This document shows positions 6,033 to 20,496 of a DNA stretch of 21,789 nt, in pieces. Made by a program: the position numbers and the translations under genes. The notes beneath the pieces were generated by a model that was not told the DNA's origin, did no database searches, and worked only from the letters and a program-made list of their open reading frames with translations. The stretch is from positions 1 through 21,789 of the IMG/VR virus record IMGVR_UViG_3300032462_000108; one strand, 5' to 3'. Origin of the DNA: a virus. The stretch's first letter is position 1. Each line of letters starts with the position of its first letter.

Positions 6033-6295
6033 TGCATGAATTTATATTATTGATAGATGGCAAACAGAAGACTTTTCATAACTACGAAGATATTCCTGAG
6101 AATTTTCAACATGTCATTAAATTTGCACCAGAGATACCAGAGGGTCCGCACACTGAAGAACAACATGAAGAAATTAATTTGTGGAATAATAAGTTACAAA
6201 TTTTAATGCGAAGAGAAAGAGAATCTATATTAGATATTTTTTATCCACCATCAGATGCAGTAAGAAAAGCACAGGAGAATTGGAATGTCGGTTAG
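6032..6295 (+). CDS. Unrecognised 87-residue acidic protein between spike and PAAR genes
   Basis: I do not recognise this protein. It starts on a TAATG overlap with the spike gene, which makes translation very likely. It has three parts: a short beta segment (residues 1-17), a Pro/Glu/His-rich acidic stretch (about residues 18-45), and a C-terminal charged helix (about 50-80) containing R-R-E-R-E-S-I-L-D-I-F-Y-P-P. There is no signal peptide, membrane segment or metal motif. The stop lies 11 bases inside the next gene, so three consecutive genes are translationally linked. Its place between spike and spike-tip genes suggests a small baseplate part or assembly helper, but nothing in the sequence proves this. 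Confidence 0.7.
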   Translation: MHEFILLIDGKQKTFHNYEDIPENFQHVIKFAPEIPEGPHTEEQHEEINLWNNKLQILMRRERESILDIFYPPSDAVRKAQENWNVG

Positions 6296-6740
6296 TGTAA
6301 GTGTTGTCCCAGGCGCAGATACGGTTGTGTCATCAACTCTTAGGGTTGGAACAATTAATGCAACCGTAATAGCTGAAGGAGATGCTGGCGAAAGTATTAC
6401 TAATGTGACTTCAACTACACATACAGGAATTAATGTAACACCTGGAACAGACTCTTGTACACTAGTTGGAACTTATGAGGATTCTTATACTGATACATTT
6501 ACTTATGTAGAAAGAGAAAAGAGTGACTTGAATAGTACACCCGTAACAATAGTTGGACTTGCTAATTTACCAAGTGGCAAAACATATTACAACTTAAGTC
6601 AAGACACTAGAACCCATGTTACTAAGTCGTATACGATATCGGTAATTTATGATGGAGGTACAGAGAATTTTACTGTTACACAAGATATTTATAATACATG
6701 GGATGCGATTAAAGATGCAGTTGCGTCCTATTATGATTGA
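6285..6740 (+). CDS. Unrecognised 151-residue beta-rich protein next to PAAR gene
   Basis: I cannot assign a family. The protein is rich in Val, Thr, Ser and Asp with alternating hydrophobic residues, so almost entirely beta-strand, and lacks Cys apart from one near residue 58. No signal peptide or membrane segment is seen. The last 25 residues look helical (W-D-A-I-K-D-A-V-A). The start ATG at 6285 has an AGGAGAA Shine-Dalgarno about 10 bases upstream and lies inside the previous gene; the stop is immediately followed by the PAAR gene's ribosome site. Beta-rich composition and position suggest a virion surface or spike-associated protein. It could also be a tail-associated protein unrelated to the spike. 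Confidence 0.68.
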   Translation: MSVSVSVVPGADTVVSSTLRVGTINATVIAEGDAGESITNVTSTTHTGINVTPGTDSCTLVGTYEDSYTDTFTYVEREKSDLNSTPVTIVGLANLPSGKTYYNLSQDTRTHVTKSYTISVIYDGGTENFTVTQDIYNTWDAIKDAVASYYD

Positions 6741-6751
6741 GGAGAAATGAA

Positions 6752-7042
6752 ATGCCAGCAGCAACTAGAATTGGAGATGCAGACATAGCACATTGTTCTG
6801 GAATGGTCAGAGCATCTGGAAGTGGTAACGTATCTGTTAATGGAATACCTTGGAGTAGACAGGGTGACAATAACACCGGACACCTACTTCCAGGCACACC
6901 ATGCCCGGCACACGTTGCCCCAATTACAACAGGTTCAACGACTGTTTTTGTTAATTCAAAGGGAGCTGGACGAATAGGTGATGCAATTACAGGCTGCACG
7001 TCAGTTGCTCAAGGTTCTACCAACGTTTTTGCTGGAGGTTGA
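6752..7042 (+). CDS. PAAR-domain spike-tip protein
   Basis: A 96-residue PAAR protein, the size of stand-alone PAAR caps such as T4 gp5.4. PAAR proteins fold into a sharp zinc-bound cone that tips the gp5/VgrG needle and helps to breach the outer membrane. The start (P-A-A-T-R-I-G-D), two later glycine-rich repeats (G-N-V-S-V-N-G-I-P and T-T-V-F-V-N-S-K-G) and G-R-I-G-D-x-I-x-G-C are family hallmarks. Likely metal ligands are H14, H44, H54 (or C51) and C82. I chose ATG 6752 rather than the in-frame TTG at 6737 because a GAGGAG Shine-Dalgarno at 6739-6744 lies between them and because PAAR proteins start at M-P-A-A. It lies downstream of the spike gene with two unknown genes in between and just ahead of the wedge gene gp25. 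Confidence 0.92.
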   Translation: MPAATRIGDADIAHCSGMVRASGSGNVSVNGIPWSRQGDNNTGHLLPGTPCPAHVAPITTGSTTVFVNSKGAGRIGDAITGCTSVAQGSTNVFAGG

Positions 7043-7461: not shown

Positions 7462-9525
7462 ATGGCTTCAGATAGATTAAGAATAACGGAGCTAGACTTC
7501 GACACAATTAAGGCGAATTTACAAACGTACTTAAATGCACAAACAGCCTTTACTGATTATGATTTCACAGGTTCAGGTCTATCAACACTTCTAGATATTT
7601 TAGCATATAATACACATTATAATGCTTACTATCTAAACATGGTTGCCAACGAGGCATTTTTAGATACTTCGTTACTAAGAGATTCCGCAGTGTCACATGC
7701 TAAGACTTTAGGTTATACTCCATTTTCTACACGAGCTTCAGTCGCAACAATTAACTTTAGAGCTAATTCAGCAACATCTACTGTGGGTACAATGACATTA
7801 CCTGCTGGATTTTCATTCTTATCTGAACAGATTGATAACAAGGCTTATAACTTTATTGTATTGAATGATACTACAGTTACAAAAGCTGATAGTTCATATC
7901 TAATCGAAGACCTTTCAATATATGAAGGTCAGTATGTAACTTATGTTTTTAATTATGATAGTGCATCTAATCCAAAATCAATATTCGTGTTGCCTGATAG
8001 TAGCATAGACACAACAACTATTTCACTTACAGTACAACAATCATCTTCTAATACTTCAACTGTTGTTTATAATAAAGTTACAGAGGTTTTAGATATTGGA
8101 CCAACATCGGAAGCTTATTTCTTACAAGAAGAAAAGAATGGTAAATATGAAGTTTACTTCGGCAATGGCGTAGTGGGTAAAGCATTACCTGATGGCGCTG
8201 TTGTTAAAGTTAATTATGTTGTAACAAACGGAACAACAGTCAACAAAGCAAATAACTTTATAGCTACTGCGACTGTAGCTGATTCATTGAGTGAAGCATT
8301 ATCAACATTTGTAATTTCTCCAATTAGTGCGGCTGCTGGTGGAGCAGAAAGAGAAACCGTTGATGCTATTAAATATTCAGCTGCGGCTCAATTCTCATCA
8401 CAGAATCGTTTAGTTTCATTTAAAGATTATGAATCATATATTACTAATAATTATCCAAACATCTCATCTATATCAGTTTGGGGTGGAGAAGATAATGACC
8501 CACCAGTTTATGGTAAAGTATTTGTTTCATTAAAACCAAAAGATAATTATTATATTTCAGAAACAGAGAAGGCAAGAATTATTAATGATATAATTACTCC
8601 AAAAGCTATCGTTGCTGTGACAGCTGAAATACTAGACCCACAATATCTATATCTAATTGTTGAAGCTGACATTGAATATACTGCTACAAAAACCACTCTA
8701 ACTGAAGATGCTTTAAAAGTATTAATTAGAAATGCAATTGTTAATTATAAGAATGTTAATCTAGATAAGTTTGATGCTAAATTCATCAATTCAAAAATAG
8801 AAACAGACATTGATAATGTTCAAAAAAATGCAATCGTTGGTTGCGAAACTCTAGTTCGTGCTCAGAAAAGATTTACACCAACACTTTCAACATCATTAAG
8901 TTACACAATTGATTTTAATATTCCTTTATTCCGTGGTTCACTTACTAATAGGTTAACTTCAACATCATTTAGTGTATTAGATTCTACTGCCACTACTCGC
9001 TCTGTTATTTTAGAAGAAATAGCACAATCATTTTCTGGTGTTGCTTCTATTAGTATAACAAATCCTGGTACAGGATATACAATAGCGCCAACAGTAACAA
9101 TCACTGGTGATGGCACAGGTGCTACTGCAACTGCTGTTATTGTTAATGGCGCAGTTCATTCAATTGAAATAACAAATCGTGGTATTGATTACACAAGGTC
9201 AATTGTAACAATCTCTGGTGGTTCCGGTTATGGTGCTACAGGCACAGGTGTGATTGATGCAAAAACTGGATTATTAAGAACAATCTATTATGATGCAAAT
9301 GCAGAAAGACAAATTGTAGATGCGACTGCTGGTGAAATTAATTACGAGACAGGTCGAATTACAATAAATGACATTAATATCCTTTCAGTATCAGCTACAG
9401 ATGATGTGATAAGATTGACTATTGAATCAGAAGATAGTATTATAGAATCCTCTAAAAACACAATTATTACAATTGATACAGCAGACGTAACGTCTATTGT
9501 TACAACACTAACTAAAGCGACTTAA
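7462..9525 (+). CDS. gp6: Baseplate wedge subunit gp6
   Basis: A 687-residue protein (T4 gp6 is 660) that forms the gp6-dimer ring of the wedge core, related to the P2 gpJ family. The N-terminus (F-D-x-I-K-A-N-L-x-x-Y-L, then Y-D-F-T-G-S-G-L-S-T-L-L-D-I-L-A-Y-N-T, residues about 13-55) is diagnostic, as is the A-x-N-E-A-F-L-D-T-S segment near residue 65. The mid region (about 280-480) has the usual L-V-S-F-K-D-Y-E and I-S-V-W-G-G-E-D motifs. Residues about 528-603 are a glycine-rich beta module with two copies of a repeat (first core G-T-G-Y at 536-539) and look like an insertion, since gp6-type sequence (Y-Y-D, then G-R-I-T-I-N) resumes straight after. The stop overlaps the next ATG as TAATG. 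Confidence 0.92.
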   Translation: MASDRLRITELDFDTIKANLQTYLNAQTAFTDYDFTGSGLSTLLDILAYNTHYNAYYLNMVANEAFLDTSLLRDSAVSHAKTLGYTPFSTRASVATINFRANSATSTVGTMTLPAGFSFLSEQIDNKAYNFIVLNDTTVTKADSSYLIEDLSIYEGQYVTYVFNYDSASNPKSIFVLPDSSIDTTTISLTVQQSSSNTSTVVYNKVTEVLDIGPTSEAYFLQEEKNGKYEVYFGNGVVGKALPDGAVVKVNYVVTNGTTVNKANNFIATATVADSLSEALSTFVISPISAAAGGAERETVDAIKYSAAAQFSSQNRLVSFKDYESYITNNYPNISSISVWGGEDNDPPVYGKVFVSLKPKDNYYISETEKARIINDIITPKAIVAVTAEILDPQYLYLIVEADIEYTATKTTLTEDALKVLIRNAIVNYKNVNLDKFDAKFINSKIETDIDNVQKNAIVGCETLVRAQKRFTPTLSTSLSYTIDFNIPLFRGSLTNRLTSTSFSVLDSTATTRSVILEEIAQSFSGVASISITNPGTGYTIAPTVTITGDGTGATATAVIVNGAVHSIEITNRGIDYTRSIVTISGGSGYGATGTGVIDAKTGLLRTIYYDANAERQIVDATAGEINYETGRITINDINILSVSATDDVIRLTIESEDSIIESSKNTIITIDTADVTSIVTTLTKAT
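9040..9270 (+). repeat. G-x-G-Y beta repeat module inside gp6
   Basis: Encodes two tandem copies of a roughly 35-residue repeat of form I-x-I-T-N-x-G-x-G/D-Y-x-x-x-P-x-V-x-I-x-G-x-G-x-G-A-x-A-x-A. The same module occurs in the gp7-position protein, gp8 and the DUF4815 protein in this window. Confidence 0.75.
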
Positions 9526-12080
9526 TGGCACATCTGAACGACAAAACCTCGATACTGGTTAATAGACAACTTCCTGAATTTGTTCGTGAAGATTATCCTC
9601 TATTCATCACTTTCCTTGAAGCTTATTATGAGTTTCTTGAAACTAAACAAGGAAGTGAACTTAATGATTTAACAACTCAAGCAAAATCATTACGATATGT
9701 TAATGATGTTGACCATGCAATTGCAGAATTTGAGACTAGTTTCTTTAATTCATTTGCAACTCTTTTACCTAGAGATATTGAAGTTGACAAAGAGTTTTTA
9801 ATTAAAAATGTTTTACCTCTTTACCTTGCCAAGGGTAATGAAAAGTCATTTAAACTCCTCTTCAGAATGTTATTCAATGATGAAGTTGATATTATTCTAC
9901 CAAAAAATAATATATTAAAACCATCAGATGGCAAATGGGTTATTGACAATGTTCTTAAAGTTGAAACTGATATAAGAAGCGTTTATGTTGGTGACGGAAC
10001 AACAACTACATTTATCTTAGCACAAGAAGCTTTAGCTTCACAAATCACAGTTACAGTTGCCGGCGTTACTCAAGTTGAGACCACTAATTTCTATATTCGT
10101 AAAGAAACTAAAAAATTAATATTAGTAACTGCACCAGCTATTGGGGCAGAAGTTAAAGTTGTTTATACTAACTTCGAAGCATCACAATTAAACAATAGAA
10201 AAGTAACAGGTATGCAATCAGGTGCAACAGCACTTATTGAACGTGCAGTAAAAAGAACAATTACAGATACATTAAATCTTGGTTTCCCTTACCAATTATT
10301 CATTAATAGTAAAACTCTAGTTGGTACATTCACTCAAGGTGAACAAGTTACAACAGACGTATTTGATGCCAATGGGAATCTAATTACAATCACAGCTGAT
10401 ACTTTTTCAATTGTAAATAAAATTAATGTTATCACCGGCGGTGAAAGTTATAATGTTGGTGACCAAGTTCCAATTACAGGAGGCGGTGCAACAATTGTAG
10501 CAACTGCTTCTGTCGATGATGTTGTTGAAGGATATATTGATAGAGTTGATGTTAATAATGGAGGTTCTGGTTTTATTGCTGGAGGTGACATTTATGTTTC
10601 TGGCATTGCACCTTTAATATTAGACCTTGCTATTGGTTCTGTAGACACTACAGGTGTAGCAAATTCAACATCTAATACATATTTTGTTAATAATGATGTT
10701 ATCTCAACCTATGGTTCTATATTAATAAGTGCTCCTGATTATGGGTTTCCAGCAACAGTGGTTGCTAGTGAAAATGTGGCTACAGTGATTGCTGATGCAT
10801 TAACAGAATTAACATTAACGAATTTAGGACCAATTACAAATGTAGCTGTTCTATTCTCAAACACCTCAACTTCAATATCTCCAACTTTAGTTGCTCAAGG
10901 AGCTACATATACCGCCGGCGCTTCTACATTTACTATTAAACCATTTAACTCCGTTGGAAGAATTACAATCACAGCTCCGGGTACAGGATATAATGTCGGC
11001 GAAGAGATTGTATTTACAAATCCAATAGGCACTTTCGGAATAGGTGCAGCCGCAGCTATTAAAGAAATTGATGTGTCGGGTGGAATCACTCAAATAGAAA
11101 TACAACAGTCTCGTATTCCTGGCACAGTAGCTATTACAAATAATACAGTTACAATGTCTGGAACAGGAACGAACTTTGGCGTAGATGTTCGAGTTGGAGA
11201 TAACATAATTGTTCAAAATCAAAATAGAACTATTAATGCAATATCTTCAACAACTTCAGCTAATGTAAGTGCCAATTTCACATTTCCAGATGCAAGTGAT
11301 ATAACAGGAGAAACAGGAAGAAAAGTTGGTCGGTATAGTGTTTACCCTCTAGGCGGCCAAAATTATAATGCAGATGTTATGCCAACATTATCAATAACAA
11401 CAGCCACAGGAACTGGAGCTACAATAACTACATCTGCGTTGATGGGTAATAATAGTTCAATGACGCCATTTATTGGTACTGATAAACCAGGTGAAATTAT
11501 TTCTATTAGTGTTATTTCTGGTGGCACAGGTTATCAATTTACACCACAAGTTGACTTGACATTATCTGGTAACGGACTTGCCACAGCTAATGCAGAAATT
11601 GAATCAGTTTATTCATCATTTACTGGTCGCTGGACATCATCAGATTCCATTCTATCTTCAAGTGAAAGAAGATTACAAGGTAGTAATTATTATACTGATT
11701 TCTCTTATGTAACATCTTCACTTACTGAATTTACAAAATACAAGAAAGTATTAAGAGACTTATTACATCCATCTGGATTTAATCAGTTTGCTGACTTAAA
11801 CTTCAAATCAAATATTGTACCACCAACAATTGTATATTCAAGTGCAACTCAAAAAACAGTTTCTGGTACCGTAAATGTTGCGGCTGCTTCAATATATCTA
11901 ACTGGTACTAACACCAAGTTTAATGTAGCAACATCAGAAAGTATTATTACAATCGGCGATAGTATTTCAGTTAATAATGAAATTCGAGTTATTAACAGTA
12001 TTATCAGTAACACTAACCTATCGGTCACTGCAACATTTACTAATTCAGCAAATGAACAGCCCGTTATATTACAGACATAA
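9525..12080 (+). CDS. gp7: Baseplate wedge protein at the gp7 position
   Basis: An 851-residue virion protein lying where T4 has gene 7 (1032 residues), between gp6 and gp8. The N-terminal 150 residues are helical and well conserved in style (L-P-E-F-V-R-E-D-Y-P-L-F-I-T-F-L-E-A-Y-Y-E-F-L, then Y-L-A-K-G-N-E-K-S-F-K-L-L-F-R), a signature I recall from marine T4-like phages. The middle (about 300-700) is beta-rich with several G-x-G-Y-type repeats. A conserved segment follows at about residues 703-765 (G-R-W-T-S-S-D-S, then K-V-L-R-D-L-L-H-P-S-G). A second beta module occurs twice, at residues about 533-591 and 781-843, the latter closing the protein. In the wedge, gp7 bridges inner and outer baseplate. 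Real similarity to T4 gp7 is not visible to me, so the name rests on position and size. Confidence 0.6.
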   Translation: MAHLNDKTSILVNRQLPEFVREDYPLFITFLEAYYEFLETKQGSELNDLTTQAKSLRYVNDVDHAIAEFETSFFNSFATLLPRDIEVDKEFLIKNVLPLYLAKGNEKSFKLLFRMLFNDEVDIILPKNNILKPSDGKWVIDNVLKVETDIRSVYVGDGTTTTFILAQEALASQITVTVAGVTQVETTNFYIRKETKKLILVTAPAIGAEVKVVYTNFEASQLNNRKVTGMQSGATALIERAVKRTITDTLNLGFPYQLFINSKTLVGTFTQGEQVTTDVFDANGNLITITADTFSIVNKINVITGGESYNVGDQVPITGGGATIVATASVDDVVEGYIDRVDVNNGGSGFIAGGDIYVSGIAPLILDLAIGSVDTTGVANSTSNTYFVNNDVISTYGSILISAPDYGFPATVVASENVATVIADALTELTLTNLGPITNVAVLFSNTSTSISPTLVAQGATYTAGASTFTIKPFNSVGRITITAPGTGYNVGEEIVFTNPIGTFGIGAAAAIKEIDVSGGITQIEIQQSRIPGTVAITNNTVTMSGTGTNFGVDVRVGDNIIVQNQNRTINAISSTTSANVSANFTFPDASDITGETGRKVGRYSVYPLGGQNYNADVMPTLSITTATGTGATITTSALMGNNSSMTPFIGTDKPGEIISISVISGGTGYQFTPQVDLTLSGNGLATANAEIESVYSSFTGRWTSSDSILSSSERRLQGSNYYTDFSYVTSSLTEFTKYKKVLRDLLHPSGFNQFADLNFKSNIVPPTIVYSSATQKTVSGTVNVAAASIYLTGTNTKFNVATSESIITIGDSISVNNEIRVINSIISNTNLSVTATFTNSANEQPVILQT
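10420..11600 (+). repeat. Several G-x-G-Y-type beta repeats in the gp7-position gene
   Basis: Degenerate copies begin near 10420 (I-N-V-I-T-G-G-E-S-Y), 10540 (V-N-N-G-G-S-G-F), 10960 (I-T-I-T-A-P-G-T-G-Y), 11340 (L-G-G-Q-N-Y) and 11492 (I-S-V-I-S-G-G-T-G-Y). Several are followed by the glycine/alanine-rich second half. They are not contiguous: other sequence, including the second module at 11121-11290, lies between them. Confidence 0.6.
11121..11290 (+). repeat. Second beta module, copy 1 (internal) in the gp7-position gene
   Basis: Encodes residues about 533-591, starting G-T-V and containing G-T-N-F, V-G-D-N-I-I-V, N-R-T-I-N-A-I-S-S and S-A-N-V-S-A-N-F-T-F. It pairs with the copy at 11865-12053, which has the same order of motifs with diverged sequence. 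Confidence 0.65.
11865..12053 (+). repeat. Second beta module, copy 2 (C-terminal) in the gp7-position gene
   Basis: Encodes residues about 781-843, starting G-T-V and containing T-K-F-N-V, I-G-D-S-I-S-V-N-N, I-R-V-I-N-S-I-I-S-N-T and L-S-V-T-A-T-F-T. The motif order is the same as in copy 1 at 11121-11290. Confidence 0.65.
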
Positions 12081-12083
12081 ATA
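12076..12083 (+). promoter_or_regulatory. Late promoter octamer CATAAATA overlapping the preceding stop, before gp8
   Basis: CATAAATA overlaps the stop codon of the gp7-position gene (TAA at 12078-12080) and lies 7 bases before the gp8 ATG at 12091. It differs from the T4 late consensus only at the first base. No Shine-Dalgarno is present between it and the ATG. Confidence 0.45.
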
Positions 12084-12090
12084 GAATACA

Positions 12091-13665
12091 ATGACCCAAA
12101 TTACAAAGAAAAAAACAGGATATCAAAACGCTAAAATCTGGCGTGATTCTCAACAAACAGCGGCTGCTACAGACCCGGTACTGTATATCTTTATTGGTAA
12201 TAATATACCATATTCAGATGAAGCTACACCCCCTGCTCTAGTTGATTCAATAACAGAAGAGAAAGATACATGGGATAATATGTATGCAGCCAAGAAGATT
12301 ACTGGTGGCGATAGTGAATTAGTTATTCCAAAAGTTGTTTGGGCAGCTAATAACAAATATATCCAATTTGATGATACTACAGATGCTAATACTCTTGTTC
12401 AAGCAAATACAATAAGAGGCGTTCAGCCGATGTATACGATTACATCTGACCGAAATGTTTATAAGTGTATGTCTAATAACACATCTACATTGGCTAACAC
12501 TGCTAATTCAACAATAGAACCAACAGGTGATTATACATCATCTAATGGTAATATATCTACGGCTGATGGTTATTTGTGGAAGTATATGTATAATGTTAAA
12601 CCGTCAAACAAATTCTTAACATCTTCCTGGATTCCAGCTCCAACTTCAACAAGTCAATTAGATTATGGAGTAAATACCACAGGTGTGGTTGATGGCGAAT
12701 TAACAACCGTTGTCATGCAAACTGCTGGTTCTGGTTATGTAGATAGTGTTGTAACTGTTAGTGCATTTATAACTGGTTGTACTATTCTTACATTAGCAAA
12801 TACAACAAATATATCTGCGAATATGAGTGTGTCAGGCACTGGTATTTTCACAGGTGCAACTATAACATCAAGAGATGTTGCTAATAATACAATATTACTT
12901 TCGACCGGCGCCACAGCAAACGGCGGAGCTTCAGGAAATAATTTAACTGTATCGACTAGAGTTTCTATCGATGGCGATGGAGTCGGTGCTGTTGCTACTC
13001 CTACATTAACAGGTGACACTTTAACCAAGATAACAATATCAACTATTGGCACCGGATACACAACTGCAAACGCAGCTATCTATGGCTCAGCAACTGTTGC
13101 TAACACAGCAACTGCTCGTGTTGTGATTGGTCCAAAATATGGCCATGCATATAATCCCGCTGATGAATTAATGGCAGGAAATGTAATGAACACCATTAGA
13201 CTTGGAGAAATAGATACAACAGAGGATGGATTAATTTCAGCAAATACTTCGTTTAGGCAGGTAGGTCTTCTGATTAATCCGCATAAATATAGCAATACAT
13301 CGGCTGTTAGTCATACGACTGCTAATTCAGTTATAAAACAAGCAACAACATTAACGGTGATTGCTGGGTCAACATATAACTTAAATGAATATGTCTATCA
13401 AGGCTCTTCAGCTGCAACTGCAACATTTTTTGCTTATTTAAACTATCAAACTGCAAATGACTTATGGCTTACTAGGGTTAAAGGAACATTAACAGTTGGT
13501 CTTCCTTTGACTGGTGCAACTTCGGGAAGTTCAAGAACAGTAATTAGTAGTGTTAATCCAGAATTTCAACCATATTCTGGCGATATTGTTTATACAGAAA
13601 ACGCTGTCAAAACAGACCGAACAGACGGTCAGGCGGAAAATATTAAATTAGTTATAAGATTTTAA
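12091..13665 (+). CDS. gp8: Baseplate wedge subunit gp8, enlarged by an internal beta insert
   Basis: A 524-residue homologue of T4 gp8 (334 residues). Shared landmarks in order: an early Y-I-F-I-G strand (T4 has I-F-I-T-F-G), a W-D-N-M segment, V-Y-K-C (Y-R-C in T4), T-A-D-G-Y-L-W-K-Y-M-Y (residues about 151-162; T4 has G-D-G-Y-V-W-E-Y-L-F), F-R-Q-V-G-L-L-I-N-P (about 390; T4 F-R-Q-I-S-I-I-T-N-P), and a closing S-G-D-I-V-Y-T-E-N-A then E-N-I-K-L-V-I-R-F (T4 S-G-E-M-I-Y-M-E-N-R then E-I-N-I-L-F-T-F). The extra 190 or so residues are mostly a glycine-rich beta insert at about 200-344, itself interrupted by another module. In T4, gp8 is a dimer that links gp7 to gp10. Expression may come from the late octamer just upstream. 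Confidence 0.88.
   Translation: MTQITKKKTGYQNAKIWRDSQQTAAATDPVLYIFIGNNIPYSDEATPPALVDSITEEKDTWDNMYAAKKITGGDSELVIPKVVWAANNKYIQFDDTTDANTLVQANTIRGVQPMYTITSDRNVYKCMSNNTSTLANTANSTIEPTGDYTSSNGNISTADGYLWKYMYNVKPSNKFLTSSWIPAPTSTSQLDYGVNTTGVVDGELTTVVMQTAGSGYVDSVVTVSAFITGCTILTLANTTNISANMSVSGTGIFTGATITSRDVANNTILLSTGATANGGASGNNLTVSTRVSIDGDGVGAVATPTLTGDTLTKITISTIGTGYTTANAAIYGSATVANTATARVVIGPKYGHAYNPADELMAGNVMNTIRLGEIDTTEDGLISANTSFRQVGLLINPHKYSNTSAVSHTTANSVIKQATTLTVIAGSTYNLNEYVYQGSSAATATFFAYLNYQTANDLWLTRVKGTLTVGLPLTGATSGSSRTVISSVNPEFQPYSGDIVYTENAVKTDRTDGQAENIKLVIRF
12688..13120 (+). repeat. G-x-G-Y module in gp8, split by a nested second module
   Basis: The first repeat begins at M-Q-T-A-G-S-G-Y and runs to V-V-T-V-S (about 12760). 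It is then broken by a separate module at 12762-12957 (T-I-L-T-L-A-N-T-T, M-S-V-S-G-T-G-I, N-N-T-I-L-L-S-T-G-A). Its second half resumes at 12961 as D-G-D-G-V-G-A-V-A-T. A further copy follows at I-S-T-I-G-T-G-Y (about 13040). Confidence 0.7.
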
Positions 13666-13683
13666 CAGAGGAAACTGAACTAG

Positions 13684-16600
13684 ATGACAATCAATACCAA
13701 TTTTAATGTAAGCCCTTACTATGATGACTTTAGTGAGGATAAAAAGTTTCTTCGAATGTTATTCAAACCTGGATATGCTGTTCAGGCTCGTGAATTAACT
13801 CAATCACAAACTATTCTACAAAAGCAAATTGAAAGATTTGGTAACCATATTTTCGAAAATGGGTCAGTTGTTTCTGGCGGTACCACATACTTACAAGATG
13901 TTACATATCTTAAACTAGACTCCGATTATGCAGGCACAGCTGTTACTGCAAATAATTTTATTGGTGCAACTATTGTAGATAGTATTTCTCTGCCAACTAA
14001 ACGTGCAGAAGTTATTAAAGTTTATGATGCAGATGCTGGCACAGGTGACCCAAAAACACTTCTAGTTAAACAAATTTATGGCACTGCGTTTGCAGCTGCT
14101 GACACTATACTAACTTATGAAGCTTCATTCACGGCTGCTAATGTAGCAACTTCGGGTGTTGGTACAGGCCAAATATTTTCTGTAAATGAAGGATTTTATT
14201 ACTATGACGGATTCTTCATTAAGAATTCTGCTCAAACTATAGCAACATCAAAATATTCCAGCTCAACAGCTAATGCAAGAATTGGTTTTATAATTTCAGA
14301 ATCAGTTGTCACGTCAAGTTCAGATACTAGTCTATTAGACCCAGCCCAAAATGCTTCTAACTATCAAGCACCAGGTTCAGACCGATTTAAAATTGATTTA
14401 ACTCTTACAACTCGGGCACTCACATCAACAGATGTGACACAATTCATTGAACTTGCTCGTGTTGAAAATGGTGTTTTAACAAGAGCATATACAACACCAA
14501 TTTATTCAGTATTAGAAGATACATTAGCAAGAAGAACTTTTGATGAATCTGGTAACTATACAGTAAGGCCATTTAAGTTATCTTTAGAAACAAATTCAGC
14601 AAACACCGCTAATTTAGATATAACACTCTCTCCAGGTAAAGCATATGTGTTTGGTTATGAGTATGAATCAATTGCCCCAATAACATTAACGATTGACAAA
14701 CCAAGAAATAAGGAAGCTGTTCAAAATAAAAAATTAACTGGTGATTATGGTAATTTTGTTTATACAACAAATCATGTTGGCACACAAGCAATTAACGATT
14801 TATCAACCATAGATTTACATTGTGTTAATTCAGCATCCATTAATGTAGTTTCATCCGCAACAATATCAAATACAAAAATAGGTACGGCAAGAGTTATTTC
14901 ATTATCATATGATACTGCTTCAAATACCTCAAATTCATCAACATATGCCTATAAATCATTCTTGTTTGATGTTTCTGTAAATAATTCAGTTACAGGAAAT
15001 GTCACTTCAGCTGCTAGCACAACAATTACAATTGGTAACACAGGCGCTGGTCAAATATTTTCTGGCATAACAGACGCTTACAATGGCACAACACTTAGTA
15101 TCACAACTGGACCCGGTTCAACTGAATCACCAAAAAGAATTACAGCTTTTAATGCAACAACACAAACATTAACAATATCTGAAGCATTTATTACAACGCC
15201 TACCACAGCATCTCAGTTTTCTATCGACTTTGGAATAAGTGAAATGGAAAGTTTAGCTACATTCTCAGGAACAACAGTAGTTAATAAATCCGATGTTGAA
15301 ATACGGTCTAAAGATTTAGCTTCAACATATAATGATACATTTATAACCGATTCGGAATATCAATCACCAATTATTTCTTTAGGTGAGAGATTTATTGCTG
15401 ATGGAACAATTGCTGATTTTTCTTATTCATATAAAAGATTATACACAGGTCAATCATTTACCGCTAATGTATCACCGGCATTATCAGTAGGTTCAGGTGA
15501 AACGATTGCGAGTGCAACAACATCTTCTACAAAATTAGCAAACTATCAAGTTGTTGTAACTTCTGCTGGAAGTTCATCATATTCTGTTGGCGAGGTTATT
15601 TCGGTTGATAAAATTACAACCGTTGACGCCGGCACAAGAAAAATTACAGTTGATGGTGCAGCAAACATGACAGCAAATGTGACTGCAACTATTGATTTCA
15701 CATTAGTATCTGGTAGTCCTGCAAAAACAAAAACACTAGTTTCAGCTGCTGCAGCTGTTCAAACTACGGGTGGTGAAATTATCAGTACTGGTAATATTGT
15801 TTATGCCTCTTCAGGTCAAACAACAATTGCAGCTGCTCAAGTTGTTAAAACTCCAGATACAGCACAAACACTTTATGTTTCTGATATTGATGCTCTAGTT
15901 AGTGTTTATGATTTTGATGGTAATGCAGTTTCTAATAGTCCTTCTGACTACACAGATATTACAACTCGTTATACATTGGATAAAGGACAAAAAGATTCAT
16001 TCTATGACCATGGAAATATTAAACTAAAACCTGGACAAATAGCACCCAATGGTCCACTAGTTGTAAGATATAATCATTATTCATCATCTGGCGCTGGATT
16101 CTTTACCGTAGATTCTTATCCAACATATGGAACAATACCCACATTTACTTCACCTACATCCGGTCGAGCTTATGAACCAAGAGATTCTATTGATTTTAGA
16201 CCAGTTCGTAAAGATGCAACTGCAGCAATTGGTGAAACAGTAGTATTTGATGTTGATTCTTCAACAACAGGACCAAAAGTTGTTGAAAATGGTTCATCTA
16301 TCATTTTAGACTTTAGTTATTATTTACCAAGAATTGACATCGTTGTTTTAAATAAAAATAGAACATTTGATATTGTAAAAGGCGAACCATCTATAAATCC
16401 GGTTCGACCAAGAAATATAGATGATGCTATGAATCTTTATATTCTAAGTGAACCAGCTTATCTTGCAGACACTAGCGATACTCAAGTTGAATATGTTAAT
16501 AATCGTAGATATACGATGCGAGATATTGGTAATTTAGATACTCGTATTAATAATCTTGAATACTATACATCATTATCATTACTTGAACAAGACGCTATTA

Positions 16601-19600
16601 ATAAACAAGATTTAACAATTCTCGATTCAACAAATTTACCAAGATTTAAAAATGGTATTGTTGTTGATGGGTTTAAAGGACATTCTGTTGCTGATGTATC
16701 AAGTGCTGAATATATAGCCTCTATTGACCCTACACGAGAAGAATTAAGACCGTCATTTAACATTTCATCGTATGGATTAACATTTGATTCTGCTAATTCT
16801 GCAAACTTCACACAAGATGGTCCTTTTGTTACACTCTCATCAACATCTACATCTTTTGTTGAACAAGATTTAGCATCTAAAACCATGAACATTAACCCAT
16901 TTAATGTGGTTAATTATCTTGGTAAAATTAAATTAAATCCACCATCTGATATTTGGGTTGATACCACCAAAAAACCAGATGTATTAGTTAATATAGGTGG
17001 TGATAGAGATGCTTGGGACATTCTTTTACAAAACCAAGATATTGACCCATTTAAAGTTGAGTGGGGTAATTGGGAAACATTTTGGACAGGAACATCAACC
17101 TCGACTAGTGAAACTACAAGAGCTAACGCTTGGATTGGTGGTCGAAGAAATGGCCGAGGTAATATAAGAGTGTCGGACGCTGGGTCAATAACAACAACTA
17201 CAACCGTGGACCAATCACAAACTAGAACCGGTATTACAACTCAAGTTGCAGCTGAATCAATTACACAATCAATTGGTGACCGTATTATTGATGTATCAGT
17301 AATACCTTATATGAGAAACCTAAGTGTTCTCTTTACCGCTACTGATTTTAAACCAGATACAGTTTTATATCCTTTCTTTGATAATATAACACAAGAAAGT
17401 TATGTATCAAGAGCAAATAAATTCGTATTAGGCTCAAGTGATTTAGGATATAGAACTGCAACAGCTAATACAGAAGGCGTCAACATCTTTAATAACGGCA
17501 CATCAGCGGTAATTGGAACTGGAATAGCCGTATTAACATCGAATACAGAAGTGTTTGTTGCTAACATTTCATCTTCTGTACAATTAAATGTTGCAAGTGC
17601 AAACTTAATTGGACAAGTTTCTGGCACAACAATTCCAATAACAGAATATCATCACTATTCAGCTTCTCCTATTTCAGCTACAACTAATACAATAGTATTG
17701 AGACAAGATGCTACAGGAGCAACGAATGAAATTTTGTATGCTAATGTGGCAAATAGTACTGCCATCTCTATTACAAGTGGTACAGGTGCAGGACAAACAA
17801 GAACAATGTCTACATATGTAGCTGCTACAAGAACTGCTACTGTATCTGTAAATTGGACAACAACTCCAGATACAACTTCGGTATATTCAATTGGTAATTT
17901 AACAACTACTCGTGCAGGAGATGTCGCTGGCATTTATAGTATTCCAAAAGGAACATTTAGAACCGGTGAAAAATTATTTCGATTAATTGATGTTGCTTCT
18001 GGAGATGTTCCAAGTTCATCAACAAACGGTGACGCCTCATTCTTTGCACAAGGATTATTACAAACACAAGAAGAATTGATTGTGTCAACCATACAACCAA
18101 CCATTCAAAGAACTTCAGTAAAAGATTCTCGTGTGACATCAACATCATCGTCTGTTTCAGAACCGGTTGCTGGTTGGTGGGACCCATTAGCACAAACATT
18201 CTTAATAGCACCAGCACAACATCCTCAAGGTATATTCCTTGACCGTGTTCGTGTTTGCTTTAAATCAAAAGATACAACTGTTCCAGTTACATTACAATTA
18301 AGACCTACTGTAAACGGATATCCATCATCAACAGTGATATATCCATATGGTTCAGTTACACTTACGCCAGATAAAATAAATGTTTCCGATTCACCGGATT
18401 TTGATGATGCAACCAAATATACAGACTTTGTATTTGATACACCAATTTACATATTACCAGGTGAACACGCTTTCGTATTAGTTTCTAATTGTAATAGTTA
18501 TGAAACATATGTTGCTGAAACTGGTAAATTAGATATAGCTTCTGGATTACAAATTTCAGAACAACCTTATGGTGGTTCATTCTTTATGTCACAAAATGGT
18601 TCAACATGGACTGCTGACCAAAACCTTGATATATCATTTAGATTATTTCGCAAAACATTTAGTGGTTCAGCAACTTGCCAATTTACAGTTAATGCACCTA
18701 GTTCAAATGTAAATTATGATTTAGTTAATTTTGTTACATCACATGTTTCAATGGCAAACACTTCTATTAGTTACTCTTTCTTATCAGAGAAATCATCAGG
18801 GGGGCAGACCGGTTATCTTCCAGTCACAACATTAAGTGATTATCCAATGACAGATGGTAACGGACGCCGTGTATTGAATCCTACAACAGGCAATACAACC
18901 TTATCGCTTAAGGCTACAATGTCAACACTTAATTCAGAGGTATCTCCATTTTTAGATACAACACGATTTGGTGGAATATTTGTTGAAAATACAATTAATA
19001 ATTTACCATTGAAATCAGAAGACTTTGTTATTGCAGTTCAAGGCACAGGATATTCTACAATACCAACAGTAGAAATTACTGGTGGCGGAGGCTCAGGAGC
19101 AGTTGCAACTGCTGTACTTACATCAACAACTGTTACTGGAATTACAATAACAAATGGTGGAGCAGGATATACAACATCTCCAACTATAGCAATTACTGGA
19201 GGTAGTGGTTCAGGTGCCAGTGTAACATATAATGGTGAAGATAAGAAATCTGGTGGTAATTCAAAAGTTAGATACATGACAAGACGAGTAACACTTGCTG
19301 ATGGTTTTGATTCTGGAGATTTAAGAGTTTATCTCACAGGTTATAAACCTAGTGGTTCAAATATTCATGTGTATTACAAAGTGCTGTCTGCTTCCGATTC
19401 AGATACTTTTGATGATAAAAATTATGTTCTTATGACTGAATTGGGTAATCCAAATTTCGTATCAGCAAATAATAGAGATTTTAGAGAATTATCATTTGCA
19501 CCAGGTACTGATAGAACATCAGAAAATAGTGTCACTTATACGACAGGCGGAACAACTTATAATTCATTTAGAACATTTGCGATTAAGGTTGTAATGCAAG

Positions 19601-19668
19601 GTGATGATACCGTTGATGTTCCTAAACTGAGAGATTTAAGAGTAATCGCATTACCGGCAGAGGCATAA
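13684..19668 (+). CDS. Giant DUF4815-family baseplate/tail structural protein
   Basis: A 1994-residue virion protein. The N-terminus (Y-Y-D-D-F-S-E-D-K-K-F, then F-K-P-G-Y-A-V-Q-A-R-E-L-T-Q-x-Q, then Q-I-E-R-F-G) is the DUF4815 signature. Further landmarks are a D-T-R-I-N-N-L-E-Y-Y-T-S-L-S segment (near residue 955), a tryptophan-rich W-G-N-W-E-T-F-W block (about 1125), G-D-R-I-I-D-V-S-V-I-P-Y (from 1198), and W-W-D-P-L-A-Q-T-F (1498-1506), all recurrent in marine phage relatives. A beta module occurs twice (464-516 and 1342-1404), and a G-x-G-Y repeat pair lies near the C-terminus (about 1784-1852). Its position after gp8 matches T4 genes 9-12, so it may be the peripheral baseplate/fibre-attachment protein replacing several of them; that is inference. 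An AGAGGAAA ribosome site precedes the ATG at 13684. Confidence 0.82.
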   Translation: MTINTNFNVSPYYDDFSEDKKFLRMLFKPGYAVQARELTQSQTILQKQIERFGNHIFENGSVVSGGTTYLQDVTYLKLDSDYAGTAVTANNFIGATIVDSISLPTKRAEVIKVYDADAGTGDPKTLLVKQIYGTAFAAADTILTYEASFTAANVATSGVGTGQIFSVNEGFYYYDGFFIKNSAQTIATSKYSSSTANARIGFIISESVVTSSSDTSLLDPAQNASNYQAPGSDRFKIDLTLTTRALTSTDVTQFIELARVENGVLTRAYTTPIYSVLEDTLARRTFDESGNYTVRPFKLSLETNSANTANLDITLSPGKAYVFGYEYESIAPITLTIDKPRNKEAVQNKKLTGDYGNFVYTTNHVGTQAINDLSTIDLHCVNSASINVVSSATISNTKIGTARVISLSYDTASNTSNSSTYAYKSFLFDVSVNNSVTGNVTSAASTTITIGNTGAGQIFSGITDAYNGTTLSITTGPGSTESPKRITAFNATTQTLTISEAFITTPTTASQFSIDFGISEMESLATFSGTTVVNKSDVEIRSKDLASTYNDTFITDSEYQSPIISLGERFIADGTIADFSYSYKRLYTGQSFTANVSPALSVGSGETIASATTSSTKLANYQVVVTSAGSSSYSVGEVISVDKITTVDAGTRKITVDGAANMTANVTATIDFTLVSGSPAKTKTLVSAAAAVQTTGGEIISTGNIVYASSGQTTIAAAQVVKTPDTAQTLYVSDIDALVSVYDFDGNAVSNSPSDYTDITTRYTLDKGQKDSFYDHGNIKLKPGQIAPNGPLVVRYNHYSSSGAGFFTVDSYPTYGTIPTFTSPTSGRAYEPRDSIDFRPVRKDATAAIGETVVFDVDSSTTGPKVVENGSSIILDFSYYLPRIDIVVLNKNRTFDIVKGEPSINPVRPRNIDDAMNLYILSEPAYLADTSDTQVEYVNNRRYTMRDIGNLDTRINNLEYYTSLSLLEQDAINKQDLTILDSTNLPRFKNGIVVDGFKGHSVADVSSAEYIASIDPTREELRPSFNISSYGLTFDSANSANFTQDGPFVTLSSTSTSFVEQDLASKTMNINPFNVVNYLGKIKLNPPSDIWVDTTKKPDVLVNIGGDRDAWDILLQNQDIDPFKVEWGNWETFWTGTSTSTSETTRANAWIGGRRNGRGNIRVSDAGSITTTTTVDQSQTRTGITTQVAAESITQSIGDRIIDVSVIPYMRNLSVLFTATDFKPDTVLYPFFDNITQESYVSRANKFVLGSSDLGYRTATANTEGVNIFNNGTSAVIGTGIAVLTSNTEVFVANISSSVQLNVASANLIGQVSGTTIPITEYHHYSASPISATTNTIVLRQDATGATNEILYANVANSTAISITSGTGAGQTRTMSTYVAATRTATVSVNWTTTPDTTSVYSIGNLTTTRAGDVAGIYSIPKGTFRTGEKLFRLIDVASGDVPSSSTNGDASFFAQGLLQTQEELIVSTIQPTIQRTSVKDSRVTSTSSSVSEPVAGWWDPLAQTFLIAPAQHPQGIFLDRVRVCFKSKDTTVPVTLQLRPTVNGYPSSTVIYPYGSVTLTPDKINVSDSPDFDDATKYTDFVFDTPIYILPGEHAFVLVSNCNSYETYVAETGKLDIASGLQISEQPYGGSFFMSQNGSTWTADQNLDISFRLFRKTFSGSATCQFTVNAPSSNVNYDLVNFVTSHVSMANTSISYSFLSEKSSGGQTGYLPVTTLSDYPMTDGNGRRVLNPTTGNTTLSLKATMSTLNSEVSPFLDTTRFGGIFVENTINNLPLKSEDFVIAVQGTGYSTIPTVEITGGGGSGAVATAVLTSTTVTGITITNGGAGYTTSPTIAITGGSGSGASVTYNGEDKKSGGNSKVRYMTRRVTLADGFDSGDLRVYLTGYKPSGSNIHVYYKVLSASDSDTFDDKNYVLMTELGNPNFVSANNRDFRELSFAPGTDRTSENSVTYTTGGTTYNSFRTFAIKVVMQGDDTVDVPKLRDLRVIALPAEA
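15073..15231 (+). repeat. Third beta module, copy A, in the DUF4815 gene
   Basis: Encodes residues about 464-516: a strand L-S-I-T-T-G-P-G, then R-I-T-A-F-N-A-T-T-Q-T-L-T-I, then T-T-P-T-T-A-S-Q-F-S-I. The same order recurs at 17707-17895. Confidence 0.6.
17707..17895 (+). repeat. Third beta module, copy B, in the DUF4815 gene
   Basis: Encodes residues about 1342-1404: I-S-I-T-S-G-T-G-A-G-Q, then T-Y-V-A-A-T-R-T-A-T-V, then W-T-T-T-P-D-T-T-S-V-Y-S-I. It matches copy A in motif order and spacing, with diverged residues. Confidence 0.6.
19033..19240 (+). repeat. G-x-G-Y repeat pair near the C-terminus of the DUF4815 gene
   Basis: Two tandem copies, the first from V-Q-G-T-G-Y (Y1790) and the second from N-G-G-A-G-Y, each with P-T-x-x-I-T-G-G-x-G-S-G-A. 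They are the clearest examples in the window and closely match the gp6 copies. Glycine codons in this stretch vary, so the copies are old or under protein-level selection. Confidence 0.75.
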
Positions 19669-19669
19669 T

Positions 19670-19897
19670 ATGGCATATGTAAAAATTAAAGATAAGAATT
19701 TAATTAGAGATACTTACTCCAAAGCTGTCCTAAATACAGATAGAGCTGGACTAGAACAATATCATGCACAACGCCATATTGCTAGACAATCGCAACAAGA
19801 TAAATTAGAAACTAAAACAAGAATAATTCAACTAGAAAAAGACATGACTGATATTAAAGATTTACTTAAACAGATTGCAATGGCGAGGAAACCATAA
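19670..19897 (+). CDS. Small coiled-coil protein of unknown function
   Basis: A 75-residue basic protein. Residues about 33-70 are predicted helical with heptad-like spacing (L-E-T-K-T-R-I-I-Q-L-E-K-D-M, then I-K-D-L-L-K-Q-I), suggesting a coiled-coil oligomer. The start codon is one base after the DUF4815 stop, and its stop overlaps the next ATG as TAATG, so translation is coupled on both sides. I recall small proteins of this kind beside DUF4815 genes in marine T4-like phages, without a known job. A short trimeric or dimeric coiled coil could act as an adaptor or chaperone (compare T4 gp57A, a small coiled-coil fibre chaperone), but no specific similarity supports this. Confidence 0.75.
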   Translation: MAYVKIKDKNLIRDTYSKAVLNTDRAGLEQYHAQRHIARQSQQDKLETKTRIIQLEKDMTDIKDLLKQIAMARKP

Positions 19898-20496
19898 TGG
19901 CTATACAATATATTAATAATGCCAATACTTTCCAACAATGGTTGGTCGCAACTCAATCTTTAATCACTGTAGCTAACAATCTAACCGATGGCGGTAACAC
20001 ATTAACTTTCATGGCAAATACAAATTTTGCCGTAGCAAATAATGTAACCATTGGCGGTGATTTAACAGTATCAGGAAATATAACGTTAGATGAAGTGGGT
20101 TTTGATAATCTAACGGTAGCTGGCGATACACTCATGGCCGGAACATTAAATGTAACTGGAGTTACCGCTTTAAATGTAACAACTGCCACATCAGCAACAG
20201 TTTCTGGTAACACCATTGTGGGCGGAACATTAAATGTAACTGGAGTTACCGCTTTAAATGTAACAACTGCCACATCAGCAACAGTTTCTGGTAACACCAT
20301 TGTGGGCGGAACATTAAATGTAACTGGAAATACAGCATTAAATGTAATGTCAGCAACATCAGCAACATTAACAACGGCAGAAATTCCAACATTAACAGGT
20401 GTTAATACATTCACTGGAACTGCTAATACTAACATATATAATGCTATTTCAATCGTTGATGGAAATTCACTAGCTTTTGCAATTGCATTAGGTTAA
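19897..20496 (+). CDS. Repeat-built fibre-like virion protein
   Basis: A 199-residue protein of Ala, Thr, Val, Asn and Gly. The N-terminus (M-A-I-Q-Y-I-N-N-A-N-T-F-x-Q-W, residues 1-15) resembles the attachment end of marine T4-like tail fibre or whisker proteins. From about residue 50 it consists of short beta repeats (V-A-N-N-V-T-I-G-G-D-L-T-V-S-G-N-I, and so on), typical of trimeric beta-helical shafts in which each turn presents V-x-G-N-x. Residues about 82-137 are two identical 28-residue units encoded by a perfect 84-bp tandem repeat, with a diverged third. The C-terminal 40 residues leave the pattern and may form a cap. Likely host contact or a short fibre; no enzymatic domain or receptor-binding fold is recognisable. 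A late promoter follows its stop. Confidence 0.75.
   Translation: MAIQYINNANTFQQWLVATQSLITVANNLTDGGNTLTFMANTNFAVANNVTIGGDLTVSGNITLDEVGFDNLTVAGDTLMAGTLNVTGVTALNVTTATSATVSGNTIVGGTLNVTGVTALNVTTATSATVSGNTIVGGTLNVTGNTALNVMSATSATLTTAEIPTLTGVNTFTGTANTNIYNAISIVDGNSLAFAIALG
20141..20308 (+). repeat. Perfect 84-bp tandem repeat, two copies plus a diverged third
   Basis: Bases 20141-20224 and 20225-20308 are identical across all 84 positions as I read them, including silent sites. A third copy from 20309 keeps the first 20 bases (to about 20328), then drifts to about 20370. Each unit encodes 28 residues, so changes in copy number stay in frame. Confidence 0.92.

Follow-up and report, generated by a model that had tools for sequence, protein, structure and literature searches.

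A paired beta repeat in the baseplate genes of an uncultured T4-like phage is probably an accessory module of virion proteins

Introduction

Why should one short repeat occur in four adjacent baseplate genes whose proteins belong to unrelated families? The question is raised by IMG/VR virus record IMGVR_UViG_3300032462_000108, positions 1 to 21,789 of which form the 21.8 kb window (the whole stretch of DNA analysed here) of an uncultured, aquatic, T4-like phage. Among isolates it is closest to Pelagibacter phage HTVC008M and Methylophilales phage Melnitz, with 39-40% identity in gp6. The genes concerned encode gp6, a protein at the gp7 position, gp8 and a DUF4815 protein. Our analysis indicates, with a probability of about 0.62, that the repeat is a promiscuous accessory beta module, usually of two repeats, which works like the immunoglobulin-like (Ig-like) domains of virions. 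This reading is carried by gp6, DUF4815 proteins and tail tube proteins, unrelated virion proteins in each of which the pair is inserted in frame and relatives have the site empty.

Results

The repeat unit and its copies

The unit measures 34-39 residues and contains three predicted strands, running in the order x-I-x-I-T-N, a G-x-G-Y turn, P-x-V-x-I-x-G and then G-x-G-A-x-A-x-A; a pair gives six consecutive strands. The host proteins, which like all features within them lie on the + strand, are the gp6 baseplate wedge protein (7462..9525, 687 residues; Gp6-like_1st, PF21379, E = 2.8e-18; PHROG 219, E = 4.6e-151), the gp7-position wedge protein (9525..12080, 851 residues; Baseplate_wedge, PF23786, E = 2.5e-11, with 44 bits against a curated cut-off of 27; PHROG 17744, baseplate wedge), the gp8 baseplate wedge protein (12091..13665, 524 residues; Phage-Gp8, PF09215, E = 2.8e-9; PHROG 438, E = 2.9e-73) and the DUF4815 protein (13684..19668, 1994 residues; PF16075, E = 2.4e-59, with 201.6 bits against a curated cut-off of 30). 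Compared directly with T4 gp7, the gp7-position protein gives a weak match (E = 0.005).

Copies were detected with a profile that was seeded from the window and then built solely from 502 bacterial copies (the bacteria-only profile), and noise was gauged by 500 shuffles of each host protein, the best of which reached 5.5 bits for gp7, 4.4 for DUF4815 and 8.4 for gp6. With this profile the strong copies exceeded the best shuffle by 11-48 bits, and none of the remaining window proteins tested rose above noise. About ten copies are confirmed: a pair in gp6, four in the gp7-position protein, a pair in gp8 (the first of them split) and a pair in the DUF4815 protein. The count holds because the gp6, gp7 and DUF4815 copies beat their shuffles and the gp8 copies are backed by their protein family. 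The original prediction, made from the sequence alone, had proposed ten or so copies of a self-contained beta element, usually paired, in four proteins of unrelated families. The families and the number were borne out, and the six strands predicted for the gp6 pair, together with the excisable state of the pairs in gp6 and DUF4815, agree with a self-contained element. Pairing was found in gp6, DUF4815 and gp8 and fails for gp7, where the copies are scattered.

Neither Pfam nor NCBIfam holds a model that covers the repeat, and the gp6, DUF4815 and tail tube pairs matched no Pfam family above cut-off, even at E = 5, the Ig-like families (Big_1, Big_2, I-set and FN3) included. A search of the PDB with the pair profile returned only two matches, both judged to reflect composition and rejected: the TAL-like repeats of BurrH (whole-sequence E = 1.7e-5, with no single stretch above 9.6 bits) and WrbA (E = 0.37). 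When phages were searched by tblastn with the DUF4815 pair, nothing matched, probably due to the low-complexity filter. No description of the repeat was found in a literature search, which is weak evidence as many journals are outside its coverage.

Filled and empty sites in gp6

The gp6 pair is a clean, in-frame and excisable loop insertion, after which the family sequence resumes. Repeat 1 (ISITNPGTGYTIAPTVTITGDGTGATATAVIVNGAVHS, residues 530-567, 9049..9162) scored 52.3 bits and repeat 2 (IEITNRGIDYTRSIVTISGGSGYGATGTGVIDAK, residues 568-600, 9163..9264) 19.4 bits with the bacteria-only profile. In the AlphaFold model the pair forms strands at residues 526-534, 544-549, 552-561, 564-575, 580-585 and 593-599, with a predicted local distance difference test score mostly of 85-91 (one block at 80), and the gp6 fold continues at residue 602. 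The model has the T4 gp6 fold, residues 318-687 superposing on 3h2t (VIA Z 22.9, 3.3 Å, 272 residues).

The pair is lacking from gp6 of HTVC008M, Melnitz, Mosig, S-PM2, phiN3, DSL-LC02, MED4-213 and T4. The empty site is plain in HTVC008M, where '..SSSFKVSGD..FLNDD' is directly joined to 'GQGNIRLYY', and the repeat was found in none of 61 HTVC008M-like gp6 proteins. Both copies are present at the same place in 126 uncultured gp6 proteins of the window's clade; about half of the clade members were retrieved with the window gp6, which favours insert-bearing relatives, and the members retrieved with gp8 agree. The predicted insertion with resuming family sequence is thus upheld by empty sites in isolates and by the T4 gp6 fold on both sides. 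A further statement of the same prediction, that similar repeats occur in gp6 of marine phages, was not confirmed: all eight aligned isolate gp6 proteins besides that of T4 are without the repeat, and isolates carry copies in gp7 and gp8 instead.

Filled and empty sites in DUF4815 and tail tube proteins

The pair in the DUF4815 protein (residues 1782-1854, 19027..19245) is likewise a clean in-frame loop insertion. The bacteria-only profile placed its copies at residues 1785-1819 (33.5 bits) and 1820-1848 (30.2 bits). In the DUF4815 proteins of HTVC008M, Melnitz and Mosig this slot is a short loop, running from 'NR(L/V)..' to 'GG/GS..YITR', and none of 32 HTVC008M-like DUF4815 open reading frames (ORFs), fragments among them, has a copy. 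Among the uncultured relatives that span the slot, 47 have at least one copy there, and 46 of these have two. A separate pair lies elsewhere in the S-PM2 protein (residues 1978-2044), and because it occupies a different site, the repeat probably entered the DUF4815 family more than once. MED4-213 was left out of the DUF4815 comparison, as its joined sequence contained 39 stops introduced in joining. A homologous DUF4815 core (E = 1.1e-43) is found in the DUF4815 domain-containing phi812 ORF65 (PDB 9euf), which differs in being 1152 residues long; the best matched stretch (window residues 862-1095) stops short of the repeat region.

In two DUF4815 ORFs (L045 and L078, about residues 2019-2160), another G/T-rich beta module, of about 70 residues (TTLTVSSV..GQILSGSSVTPGTTI..), splits the second repeat. 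It thus seems that gp8 is not the only gene in which the repeat can take up a nested insertion.

A further filled site was found in lambda-type tail tube proteins of Pseudomonas (Phage_TTP_11; L284, L301 and L320), where the pair lies between 'WSDG..' and 'F.LP.TRTW'. The Vibrio phage P2 tube protein has a short loop at the same site, a clean empty site with flanks 65% identical. These filled and empty sites form an independent case.

Copies in the gp7-position protein and gp8

Four copies are scattered along the gp7-position protein. Three are weak, although each exceeds all 500 shuffles: repeat a (residues 300-331, 10422..10517, 8.0 bits), repeat b (residues 480-510, 10962..11069, 8.3 bits) and repeat c (residues 610-636, 11352..11432, 7.1 bits). 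Repeat d is strong (residues 661-693, 11505..11606, 20.4 bits), and most relatives have a copy at its place (the gp7_C slot). A doubtful partial copy (VDVNNGGSGFIAGGDIYVSG, 10545..10604) shows the motif alone, with 1.9 bits.

The first gp8 repeat is split into a GSGY strand (12709..12756), which aligns with unsplit copies in gp8 of MED4-213, Melnitz and DSL-LC02, and a GDGVGA strand (12946..13020, 10.3 bits in a looser scan). Repeat 2 (ITISTIGTGYTTANAAIYGSATVANTATARVVIG, 13030..13131) scored 2.4 bits with the bacteria-only profile and lies at the same place in gp8 of Kyanoviridae and phiN3. Taken alone, the gp8 copies are the weakest, since one of 500 gp8 shuffles reached 11.4 bits while the half-copy at residues 282-310 reached 10.3 (looser scan). 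They are secured because PHROG 438, the cyanophage gp8 family, matches the gp6 pair (E = 1.5e-10) and because the motif is kept at the same gp8 place in six isolates (HTVC008M, Melnitz, Mosig, MED4-213, DSL-LC02 and phiN3). Because the gp8 model superposes on 1n7z (Z 20.8, 3.1 Å, 267 residues), the protein keeps the T4 gp8 body with extra matter in between, the repeats of the AlphaFold model being flanked on either side by the T4 fold.

Between the two parts of gp8 repeat 1, a small barrel is predicted at residues 217-288 (12739..12954). Its modelled fold matches part of the tail tube protein of Acinetobacter phage Mystique (VIA Z 9.5, 1.9 Å, 68 residues) and 8eci of Arthrobacter phage Bridgette (Z 8.1). 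On this model, one decoration-type domain would sit within another.

The gp7 and gp8 copies are common to Kyanoviridae isolates (cyanophages) and Sinorhizobium phage phiN3 and are absent from T4, which argues that they are the older ones. The wedge proteins of the window are homologues of T4 gp6, gp7 and gp8, and in its gp6 and gp8 the T4 fold is preserved to either side of the repeats; the T4 genome, unlike the window, is free of copies.

Descent of the copies

The original prediction had further suggested, as a plausible reading, that the repeat spread by recombination between neighbouring genes. After removal of near-identical copies, the nearest neighbour of a copy was in the same slot for 103 of 103 gp6_1, 105 of 105 gp6_2, 64 of 64 gp8, 73 of 76 gp7, 29 of 37 DUF_1 and 34 of 35 DUF_2 copies. 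In a tree of pairs (76 columns, forks mostly open; single copies, with 34 columns, are too short for a tree), the gp6 pairs formed one clade (support 99), as did 22 of 23 DUF4815 pairs (96). Furthermore, pair distances track the distances between host proteins (Mantel r = 0.54 for gp6 and 0.66 for DUF4815, both P-value = 0.0005). Copies of the same phage are not more alike than same-slot copies across phages, and in both protein and DNA they exceed copies from different phages by at most about 2 points, on which basis gene conversion between slots was rejected. The slot clustering, the host-tracking distances and the tiny within-phage excess together give no sign of ongoing spread. The pairs were gained once per slot and thereafter inherited; the copies are old and descend gene by gene.

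Two other histories of the copies were weighed. That the module recently copied itself, or gene-converted, among the neighbouring wedge genes of one phage would suit the four adjacent carrier genes, the 73-74% DNA identity (over about 80 bases) between the gp6 and DUF4815 copies of the window and a slightly greater closeness of gp6_1 and DUF_1 within phages (0.478 vs 0.461, P-value = 0.002, in one of nine slot pairs tested). However, copies group by host gene rather than by phage, which is the very result that the prediction had named as refuting it; host-protein distances predict pair distances; and the other slot pairs are almost without within-phage excess, the 1-2 points seen in some being what shared codon use would produce. 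Recent spread within the genome is accordingly very improbable, and the 73-74% identity can be explained without recent exchange. A single old copying event in the clade ancestor, with separate evolution of the gp6 and DUF4815 pairs afterwards, fits somewhat better: the repeat comes as a pair in either protein, the same clade holds both insertions, HTVC008M-like phages lack both, no gp6-DUF slot comparison is closer than gp6_1 with DUF_1 (0.47), and a joint gp6-DUF4815 clade was not rejected (p-AU = 0.754). Nevertheless, the tree has just those 76 columns and few supported forks, the gp7 copies of MED4-213 are about equally close, and two independent captures from outside fit equally well, so that we regard one duplication as possible though unlikely. 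What is corrected is the account of spread, since each of the four sets is old and has come down by inheritance.

Distribution beyond the window

The repeat pair matches at least 12 PHROG families, which comprise wedge, neck, tail fibre and hub-lysozyme proteins alongside further virion proteins. The same repeat lies within PHROG 438 (Kyanoviridae gp8, positions 198-277) and the gp7-like PHROGs 701, 2885, 708 and 19630, where it is buried in whole-protein profiles and not set apart as a module. Scans of whole genomes gave 14 matches in S-PM2, 18 in MED4-213, 12 in DSL-LC02, 2-4 in each of five others and none in T4; the isolate genes hit are annotated as neck, sheath-stabiliser, gp5 hub, tail-fibre and structural. 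The repeat also occurs in bacterial and archaeal proteins (80 contigs), with up to 36 copies in one protein, and its non-phage partner domains are VgrG, GH64 plus dockerin, and peptidase C25. A VgrG protein of Desulfobacteraceae (L298) carries eight repeat copies behind its spike domains.

Because the repeat is widespread in tail proteins and bacterial secreted proteins, its presence in four baseplate genes is less special than it looked. The predicted place, the outer baseplate, is too narrow, because neck, hub, tail-fibre, tail tube and non-phage proteins carry the repeat as well.

Discussion

The repeat is apparently a widespread and uncatalogued addition to the known class of promiscuous virion beta modules. 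Ig-like domains are found in tail tubes, baseplates, fibres and capsids, are not required for the tube to form and are believed to assist adsorption (PMC9022992). They too are small beta modules (Big_1, Big_2, I-set and FN3; for example, the C-terminus of lambda gpV and the insert of the YSD1 tail tube protein; PMC9022992) borne by virion proteins of several classes, either C-terminally or within loops, and variably present among relatives, much as the repeat pair is inserted in the Pseudomonas tube protein. The repeat differs in its lack of a Pfam Ig match and in its three-strand unit of about 36 residues, often in pairs or long arrays.

Under this accessory-module reading, the pair would enter a loop of the host protein as one unit. 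Aquatic phages and bacteria harbour many circulating copies, and recombination with one of these may have given ancestors of the window's clade a pair in gp6 and another in DUF4815; the copies in gp7 and gp8 presumably date from a deeper ancestor. We infer from the loop position and the Ig-like analogy that the pair is exposed on the virion surface, where it might add a projection that packs on neighbouring subunits or might bind the host surface weakly and multivalently.

Several points weigh against this reading. The gp6 AlphaFold model has a low predicted template modelling score (0.53). No solved structure of the repeat was found in the PDB sequence search, nor any experiment on it, and no Ig-like or other named fold was assigned to the pair, the searches having taken whole gp6 and gp8 models, whose matches follow the host fold. 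The distant likeness of the motif could in part be convergence on G/A-rich beta hairpins. Finally, the gp6 pair is conserved (mean identity 65%, against 61% for the gp6 body and 55% for the C-terminal part outside the pair), which speaks against a fast-evolving role in receptor binding.

Since the pair matches the remainder of gp6 in conservation, we favour for it there a fixed role in structure or contact, to which we give even odds, over host-specific binding, which seems doubtful. More generally, the repeat could be a module that binds host surfaces or glycans and aids adsorption, as proposed for tail Ig-like domains. Its presence in secreted-type bacterial proteins (GH64, dockerin and C25 peptidase), at the C-terminus of VgrG and in tail-fibre PHROGs would suit such binding, yet it has no known binding site, gp6 conserves its pair as well as its body and the repeat is also found in neck proteins, distant from the host; we consider such a role rather unlikely. 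That G/A/T-rich beta sequence merely resembles repeats is scarcely credible: the copies are Gly/Ala-rich and have large HMMER bias terms, but the strong ones stand far above the best shuffle, the slots are kept across more than 100 phages and the strands are confidently predicted. For gp6, DUF4815 and the last gp7 copy chance is already refuted, though not for the weakest gp7 and gp8 pieces.

A broader view can be put forward tentatively, at somewhat less than even odds, in which a so far unrecognised module is exchanged among virions (wedge, hub, neck, tail tube and fibre), VgrG spikes of the type VI secretion system kind and secreted proteins from many phyla of bacteria and some of archaea, serving as a general loop plug-in for beta-rich surface proteins and itself accepting nested barrels, as in gp8. 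If the module is truly widespread and uncatalogued, a curated model would put a label on stretches that now have none, both in virion proteins of aquatic phages (the gp7-like proteins here have 850-4,500 residues) and in bacterial secreted proteins. The matched filled and empty sites in gp6, DUF4815 and tail tube proteins allow a simple deletion test of function.

Other genes of the window

A small ORF 3' of the DUF4815 gene (19897-20496) carries tandem repeats of about 28 residues (LNVTGVTALNVTTATSATVSGNTIVGGT), with no Pfam match above cut-off and no PHROG match. An ORF at 6285-6740, between the gp5 and PAAR spike genes, matches PHROG 23903 (E = 9.7e-20), which is labelled toxin; it more likely encodes a structural protein. 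The PAAR-motif gene of the spike tip (Pfam PAAR_motif, E = 1.5e-9) lies at 6737-7042 and is listed as starting with TTG.

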